Assembly: GCF_946885885.1 (NCBI RefSeq)
Contig: NZ_CAMPHN010000182.1
Span: forward strand, 1 to 8,391
Reading direction: 5' to 3'
From: an uncultured Pseudomonas sp.
GTDB lineage: Bacteria; Pseudomonadota; Gammaproteobacteria; Pseudomonadales; Pseudomonadaceae
Length of the DNA stretch: 8,391 nucleotides
Shown: piece by piece, positions 1,268 to 4,066 of the stretch
Layout: each line of letters begins with the position of its first letter
How positions within the stretch are numbered: position 1 is the stretch's first letter
Translations under genes and position numbers: made by a program
Notes under the pieces: model-generated
Told to the model about the DNA's origin: nothing
The model's database searches: none
The model's input: the letters and a program-made list of their open reading frames with translations, nothing else

Positions 1268-1274
1268 AGGAGGA
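1268..1274 (+). promoter_or_regulatory. Strong Shine-Dalgarno site that fixes the lipoprotein gene start
   Basis: AGGAGGA lies 6 nt before the ATG at 1281. It is the best ribosome-binding site in the window. It selects this ATG over the upstream in-frame ATG at 1248, which lies inside the hairpin and lacks a site. No in-frame ATG, GTG or TTG with a ribosome-binding site follows before the signal-peptide core, so the REP doublet at 1291-1344 must be translated. Confidence 0.8.
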
Positions 1275-1280
1275 TCGGCG

Positions 1281-1733
1281 ATGCTTACTCGTAGCCCGGA
1301 TGCAATCCGGGAACAAGCGAACCCCCGGATTGCATCCGGGCTACGGACATTCACGTCACTCCGCCATCGCCTGATCCTGGCTGCCCTATCAACCCTGCTC
1401 GCCGGCTGCGCCAGCCAGGGCCGGGTCGACCCGCAGGGTTACAGTGTCGAGGGCCAGGCGTCCTACTATGGCGCCCGCCATCACGGCAGAAAGACCGCCA
1501 GCGGCGAGCGCTTCGACCAGCACGCGCTGACCGCTGCCCACCGCAGCCTTCCGTTCGGTAGCCGGGTACAGGTGACCAACCTGCGTAACGACAAGAGCGT
1601 GGTGGTGCGCATCAACGACCGCGGCCCTTACGCCAAAGGCCGGATCATCGACCTGTCGCACCAGGCCGCCAAGCAACTGGACATGCTGCGCGATGGCGTG
1701 GCGCCGGTGCGCGTGCTGCAACTGGCCGAGTGA
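1281..1733 (+). CDS. RlpA-like double-psi beta-barrel lipoprotein (150 aa), no SPOR domain
   Basis: Predicted outer-membrane or periplasmic lipoprotein of the RlpA family, whose characterised members are lytic transglycosylases acting on peptidoglycan lacking stem peptides. The hydrophobic stretch [14 protein letters not shown] (residues 30-43) ends in a lipobox with Cys43. The double-psi beta-barrel domain covers about residues 54-150. It contains [56 protein letters not shown] and QAAKQL. The Glu76, Asp79 and His87 pattern of RlpA enzymes is present, so catalysis is plausible. Unlike true RlpA it has no C-terminal SPOR domain, so septal targeting through denuded glycan is not expected and no symbol is given. 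The signal n-region is unusually long (about 29 residues) because a 54-bp REP doublet is translated as residues 4-22. Without it the signal peptide would be a normal 24 residues plus Cys. The start is set by the AGGAGGA site. Confidence 0.9.
1291..1344. repeat. REP doublet (REPIN/BIME-like) inside a coding sequence
   Basis: Two identical 21-nt GTAG-type REP units face each other, at 1291-1311 and, inverted, at 1324-1344, with a 12-nt spacer. Each unit is GTAG followed by CCCGGATGCAATCCGGG, a perfect 7-bp stem with a GCA loop. The doublet is exactly 54 bp (18 codons) and lies in frame between the start codon and the hydrophobic core of the lipoprotein signal. Such units are known to be mobilised by RAYT transposases (REP-associated tyrosine transposases); none is encoded here. 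Confidence 0.93.
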
Positions 1734-3999: not shown

Positions 4000-4066
4000 G
4001 TAGCCCGGATGCAATCCGGGGAGCGATGTCCGGCGCAAAAACGCTCCCGGATTGCATCCGGGCTAC
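4000..4066. repeat. REP doublet (REPIN/BIME-like) between roxR and AEC gene
   Basis: The same 21-nt REP unit as at 1291-1311 occurs at 4000-4020 and inverted at 4046-4066, identical at every base. The 25-nt spacer begins GAGCG and ends CGCTC-compatible, so inner pairing (GGGAGCG with CGCTCCC) extends the large hairpin inward. It lies 19 bp past the roxR stop, where it may terminate or stabilise the roxSR transcript. Confidence 0.92.

Follow-up and report, generated by a model that had tools for sequence, protein, structure and literature searches.

An inverted pair of REP sequences lies in frame within the signal sequence of an RlpA-family lipoprotein gene beside gatB, between the start codon and the hydrophobic stretch. 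We regard it as likely that this repeat stems from an old insertion, most likely a single one, that it is read as part of the n-region of a lipoprotein signal which is later cleaved off, and that it has been kept in frame since and lost in some lineages. A common position, a fixed 54-nt length, an open frame and a footprint of loss are all apparent in the aligned sequences; we infer a single origin, translation of the repeat, processing of the product, neutrality for the mature protein and RAYT-type mobilisation. In the course of events that we propose, an ancestor belonging to this part of Pseudomonas would have received a REPIN-like doublet 10 nt past the start codon, and the stop-free insert would have been read as about 18 residues enlarging the signal n-region. 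Lipoprotein signals can accommodate additional residues in the n-region, which signal peptidase II removes together with the rest of the signal. The insert would thus be tolerated, since the permissive n-region would be removed when the peptidase cuts before the Cys, leaving the mature protein unchanged. The reading frame would then hold the length and position of the insert as the spacer drifts and decay of the right arm undoes the hairpin in many lineages; some lineages would lose the insert altogether.

The features of the window, by which we mean the whole 8,391-nt stretch of DNA analysed, are collected in Table 1. A sequence-only reading had described an inverted REP pair of 54 bp, or 18 codons, located after the ribosome binding site and ATG and before the hydrophobic core; its coordinates and arithmetic hold, and the order of the elements was confirmed.

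Table 1. Features of the lipoprotein gene, its REP doublet and the second doublet of the window.
Feature	Position	Strand	Details
Ribosome binding site AGGAGGA	1268..1274	+	6 nt before ATG; from sequence
RlpA-family lipoprotein gene	1281..1733	+	150 aa; Pfam PF03330 E 1.6e-27; TIGR00413 above cut-off; PDB 4avr E 8.9e-37
Start codon and 10 nt before repeat	1281..1290	+	ATG at 1281; start codon at same distance in 28/28 REP-bearing rows
REP doublet (GTAG to CTAC)	1291-1344	+	54 bp = 18 stop-free codons
Left REP arm GTAGCCCGGATGCAATCCGGG	1291..1311	+	encodes (R)SPDAIR(E)
Spacer between arms	1312..1323	+	12 nt; sequence changes freely, length fixed
Right REP arm	1324..1344	+	encodes (P)RIASGL(R); intact in window, mutated in many orthologues
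Remaining signal sequence	1345..1409	+	hydrophobic stretch and lipobox LLAGC; from sequence, by eye
Second REP doublet	4000..4066	+	25-nt spacer; intergenic, 3' of response-regulator gene

The in-gene doublet consists of two inverted copies of GTAGCCCGGATGCAATCCGGG, and the tag GTAG stands at the 5' end of the short palindromic unit, as is typical of GTAG-type REPs. The complementary arms extend over 1290-1311 and 1324-1345, are 22 nt long each, pair at 22 of 22 positions and are 12 nt apart. It therefore has the tag and the inverted arrangement of a GTAG-type REP/REPIN without the extragenic placement, as 1291-1344 lies inside a coding frame. The frame of the lipoprotein gene avoids the TAG within GTAG by reading CGT AGC and stays open to the stop codon at 1731-1733. 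Folding of 1261-1380 gave a z-score of -10.2, with none of 200 shuffles as stable, and the 21-mer pattern, with one base left free, recurred in all 15 related genomes (4 to 117 copies per genome); on both counts the doublet is not a product of chance. The 8.4-kb window contains two such doublets, at 1291-1344 and 4000-4066. No Rfam family matched the window at gathering thresholds, and the repeat start region (1281-1345) gave no match in a plasmid collection.

The host gene carries the DPBB domain expected of the RlpA family (PF03330, TIGR00413 and 4avr) and, after a hydrophobic stretch, the lipobox Cys of a lipoprotein, assigned by motif and by eye. Its codon, TGC at 1407-1409, specifies residue 43, or residue 25 when the 18 repeat codons are taken out, in agreement with the Cys25 given earlier for the gene with the repeat deleted. 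Full-length RlpA has a SPOR domain, which is absent from the window protein, where DPBB_1 was the only domain at E 0.001 or better. In the window, which derives from Pseudomonas or a near relative, gatB ends at 1217 and is followed by a terminator-like hairpin (by eye) and then by the lipoprotein gene. The closest public protein cluster is 95% identical to the window lipoprotein and is named from uncultured Pseudomonas. The solved chain of PA4485 of P. aeruginosa (PDB 4avr) is matched by residues 58-147 of the window protein; the REP-derived n-region belongs to the window protein, in a comparison that covers residues 58-147 only. The further proposal, that the doublet had entered a functional gene which stayed functional, stands as far as the DNA speaks to it, with the doublet lying in frame within the signal sequence and no stop interrupting the gene; the part that concerns translation of the repeat is presumed.

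Orthologues were drawn from a genome scan (best 80 of 335 loci) and from searches of genus-wide samples of 398 genomes. The position count was made on 88 distinct loci in which gatB lies upstream in the same orientation, REP-bearing rows being recognised by eye; 38 loci lacking a same-strand gatB upstream, including the Pseudomonas loci L033, L054, L058, L146 and L147, were left out. REP-derived codons were present at the same place in 28 of the 88 loci, the window included, and at least 23 genomes in the sample of 398 carry the repeat. Alleles with and without the 54 bp, which the sequence-only reading had suggested looking for beside gatB, thus both exist. An insertion private to the window strain was also considered and is ruled out by REP-derived codons at the same place in many species.

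Counted from the first base of the start codon (27 ATG, 1 TTG), the left arm begins at a distance of exactly 10 nt in each of the 28 REP-bearing rows. All 28 have an insert that is a multiple of three in length, stop-free and in frame, as an intragenic in-frame REP should be, with the frame open into the RlpA core, and in all 28 the spacer is 12 nt; together they make up 25 distinct segments. GTAG is intact in 23 of the 28, and 27 have GGAG or AGGA in the 20 nt that precede the start. Several rows have a second ATG between the start and the repeat, so the exact start codon is ambiguous there. Two protein searches, both with REP-bearing queries, gave at least 214 clusters among the matches listed (best 120 rows of each), and 93 of these 214 had at least 8 of the 15 REP-encoded residues in register. 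The same N-terminal distance, with R three residues after the first residue, was seen in 89 of the 93. Cluster P0185 has a spacer one residue shorter, and P0026 and P0177 retain only part of the repeat. Locus L009 (P. benzenivorans) reads MPTSSPLIRNG with a leftover GTAGCCCG, a footprint of loss, and clusters P0072 and P0073 read the same. L103, with an MPTR start and no repeat, could be either a loss or an allele that never received the insertion.

The intergenic doublet of the window served as a comparator. The orthologous place of 4000-4066 was found in 29 of 34 other loci examined, and a strict search, allowing at most 3 substitutions per arm, detected doublets in two of the 29, with spacers of 24 and 27 nt, and single REPs nearby in four. 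For the in-gene doublet, 5 of 32 orthologous places scored in this strict search, and each of the five has a 12-nt spacer. In this small comparison spacer length and place differ between loci at the intergenic site but not at the in-gene site. A wider background came from two of these genomes, which have 127 doublets between them; 75 were listed, and two entries in that list are the gene in question. The spacers of the other 73 range from 7 to 24 nt, with 49 of 73 at 17 to 19 nt and none at 12 nt. Against random genomic spacers, those of different clades are closer to one another than expected, 93 of 20000 random sets being as similar, the background being roughly approximated by the six bases at either end of 41 longer spacers.

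The rarity of a 12-nt spacer and the likeness of spacers between clades favour a single origin. The alternative is that the gene start is a hot spot at which REP doublets were inserted independently, at the same site, in different lineages, which we think unlikely. It would account for the intact arms and for the patchy distribution of the repeat on the gatB DNA tree, where 28 of 73 rows are positive and 12 changes are needed, at least 8 of them forced by well supported branches. That tree holds 73 of the 88 rows, with 15 distant or long rows left out, and gatB itself may have recombined; in a protein tree of gatB with the RlpA core, 35 of 85 inner branches were unresolved. Patchiness calls for losses, recombination, separate insertions or a mix of these, a single origin requiring many losses or recombination, and the insertions may number one or several. 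Repeated insertion would also suit the other REP-like repeat (GTAGGATGGG...) between gatB and the gene in the REP-free loci L018 and L022, and the spacers of some clades that differ widely, as between L087 and L010. However, independent events would have had to hit the same offset in 28 of 28 rows with a spacer length seen in none of the 73 listed genomic doublets, when most listed doublets whose length is a multiple of three measure 60 nt (24 of 35). The window and L002 share 10 of 12 spacer bases. If the insertion is old, the five rows in which both arms are perfect call for constraint, gene conversion, recency or luck.

Two further readings concern what the repeat does at the start of the gene. 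The doublet may have been kept because an RNA hairpin from +11 controls translation or mRNA stability, which we consider improbable. The hairpin is very stable in the window, as its z-score attests; the left arm over 7 codons has a pS of 0.11, where the control windows have a median of 0.36 but 11 of 153 reach a value as low; and the treatment of intragenic REPs in PMC3733652 suggests REPs as post-transcriptional elements. However, 23 of 28 rows show changes from the REP arm on one side or both, both arms being perfect only in the window, L032, L116, L119 and L123, and in L001-L003 the left arm is kept (with one change in L003) and the right arm largely lost. Over the 25 distinct rows 88.8% of cells pair, the single two-sided change equals the shuffle mean of 1.0, and the covariation score was not above shuffles. 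Among orthologues, the start region has predicted folding energies between -29.2 and -61.5 kcal/mol. With no covariation signal, few perfect rows and so wide an energy range, long-term conservation of the hairpin for regulation is unsupported, and the earlier suggestion of a regulatory hairpin did not hold up as a conserved role. A perfect stem near the ATG plausibly lowers initiation, and in the window strain it is plausible that it does so.

Least probable of the readings, in our judgement, is that the repeat is an untranslated leader, with true initiation downstream and the upstream start codon unused. In its discussion of P. putida, C. koseri and S. maltophilia, PMC3733652 deems most REPs at the 5' end of ORFs possibly non-coding, and L087 has a second ribosome site and an ATG after the repeat, so that the repeat of L087 may be untranslated. 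Yet 18 of the 28 REP-bearing rows have no ATG, GTG or TTG between the repeat and the lipobox, so the orthologues do not uniformly start 3' of the repeat, the outcome that had been named earlier as refuting an in-gene insertion. Eight further rows have GTG or TTG only, for which a start after the repeat is formally possible, and the other two have ATG, namely L024, five codons before the lipobox Cys, and L087, in a usable position; 26 of 28 thus have no ATG there. In the P. mendocina and P. khazarica types nothing separates the repeat from the hydrophobic core, so that the n-region can be charged only if translation starts before the repeat. The 54-nt length and open frame of all 28 rows also speak against a leader, given that the three doublets at the intergenic site of the same loci have spacers of 24, 25 and 27 nt. 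By eye, L087 upstream resembles L124 and L144 and downstream, with its own ribosome site and ATG, resembles L026; it looks like a recombinant with a junction just after the REP.

The codon models for selection on the encoded peptide, like the pair count for the hairpin, used 25 of the 28 rows, leaving out L112, L119 and L128, which are identical to others over the 57-nt segment. Pairwise values over 28 rows were pS 0.13 and pN 0.07 for the left arm (8 codons), pS 0.64 and pN 0.61 for the spacer (three codons) and pS 0.22 and pN 0.17 for the right arm, next to pairwise values of pS 0.29 and pN 0.06 for gatB and pS 0.44 and pN 0.11 for the mature domain. The pN of the left arm is ordinary, 77 of 153 control windows of 7 codons being at least as high. 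In codon models (MG, F1X4, 25 rows, 2ΔlnL measured against omega 1) the two arms together, 15 codons, gave omega 0.54 with 2ΔlnL 5.93, the sole arm test past the conventional threshold. The left arm gave omega 0.48 (2ΔlnL 2.76), its core 0.34 (3.78), the right arm alone 0.63 (2.03) and the spacer 0.50 (1.71, with a saturated tree length), against omega 0.10 (2ΔlnL 624.8) for the mature domain. By these values any constraint on the encoded peptide is weak to moderate at most. At the left-arm Ala codon GCA, GCC, GCT and GCG all occur, and GAA, which is frequent there in genomic REPs, is absent (by eye). In L124 the hairpin is broken by several synonymous changes, one of them a serine switch from TCC to AGC, and PRIASGL is preserved. 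It is possible, if doubtful, that the RSPDAIRE peptide of the left arm, or its start-proximal codons, has been taken over as a selected part of the signal or of initiation; a mobile repeat would then supply a working n-region of a conserved envelope protein.

REPs are named for their extragenic position, and N-terminal cases within ORFs have been regarded as possible start-codon errors. In-frame intragenic REPs have already been described; what is new here is a large allele series with an N-terminal doublet kept in frame. The account of intragenic GTAG and CGTC REPs in PMC3733652 has over half of them as dimers or groups encoding 20 to 30 residues, and takes the view that many of those at the N-terminus may lie outside genes, as translation could begin 3' of them. 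The present repeat resembles these as a GTAG REP dimer in frame in the ORF of a known protein and adding about 20 residues; it differs from what is set out there in being an N-terminal case common to 28 rows, of fixed length and frame, in a lipoprotein n-region. For the REPINs of Pseudomonas fluorescens, the relevant part of PMC3116915 reports that only 14 over-represented 16-mers overlap genes, and gives three single reads consistent with REPIN excision. Those REPINs share with our doublet the inverted REP pair as a unit, occur in many copies per genome, as the present REP family is likewise repeated in related genomes, and are described as primarily extragenic, whereas the present doublet lies inside a coding sequence, its spacer length is frozen and its arms decay uncompensated. 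Among the titles and opening abstract lines listed in our search of the open-licence literature on REPs and REPINs in coding sequence, signal sequences, lipoproteins and exaptation, none reported a REP in this gene.

In Rickettsia, too, palindromic elements occur in frame in genes. As summarised in a passage of PMC3733652, they sit in genes of apparently working proteins, as does the present repeat; by that description they belong to another sequence family and host, and the residues encoded here lie in a segment expected to be cleaved off. The alleles at this gene form a natural series of perfect doublet, decayed doublet, footprint, absence and one that was apparently hit by an IS110-family element. 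With its fixed 54-nt frame, this series makes it directly testable whether bacterial palindromic repeats can turn coding and what a strong hairpin after the ATG does.

A cognate RAYT was sought: a Y1 transposase (Y1_Tnp) was present in 11 of 12 relatives, and in a scan of six of these Y1-type loci this REP was near none. In L054 (P. indoloxydans) and L146, which has the same sequence, the contig end abuts a remaining right-arm tail, GGGCTAC, and matches an IS110-family element. Over L146:1-200, 185 of 200 nt match, at 99.5% identity, regions annotated as IS110 transposase in two Pseudomonas plasmids; a 31-residue peptide from this contig end had no Pfam match. It appears from these contig ends that an IS110-family element inserted into the in-gene REP, leaving only the tail of the right arm, and such an insertion would be a visible cost of the repeat. 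The case is in line with the insertion of some IS elements into REPs, as noted in PMC1525189 for the elements treated there. In the REP-free loci L018 and L022 a different REP-like repeat (GTAGGATGGGT...ACCCATC) was seen by eye between gatB and the lipoprotein gene, so that this gap gathers repeats of more than one kind.
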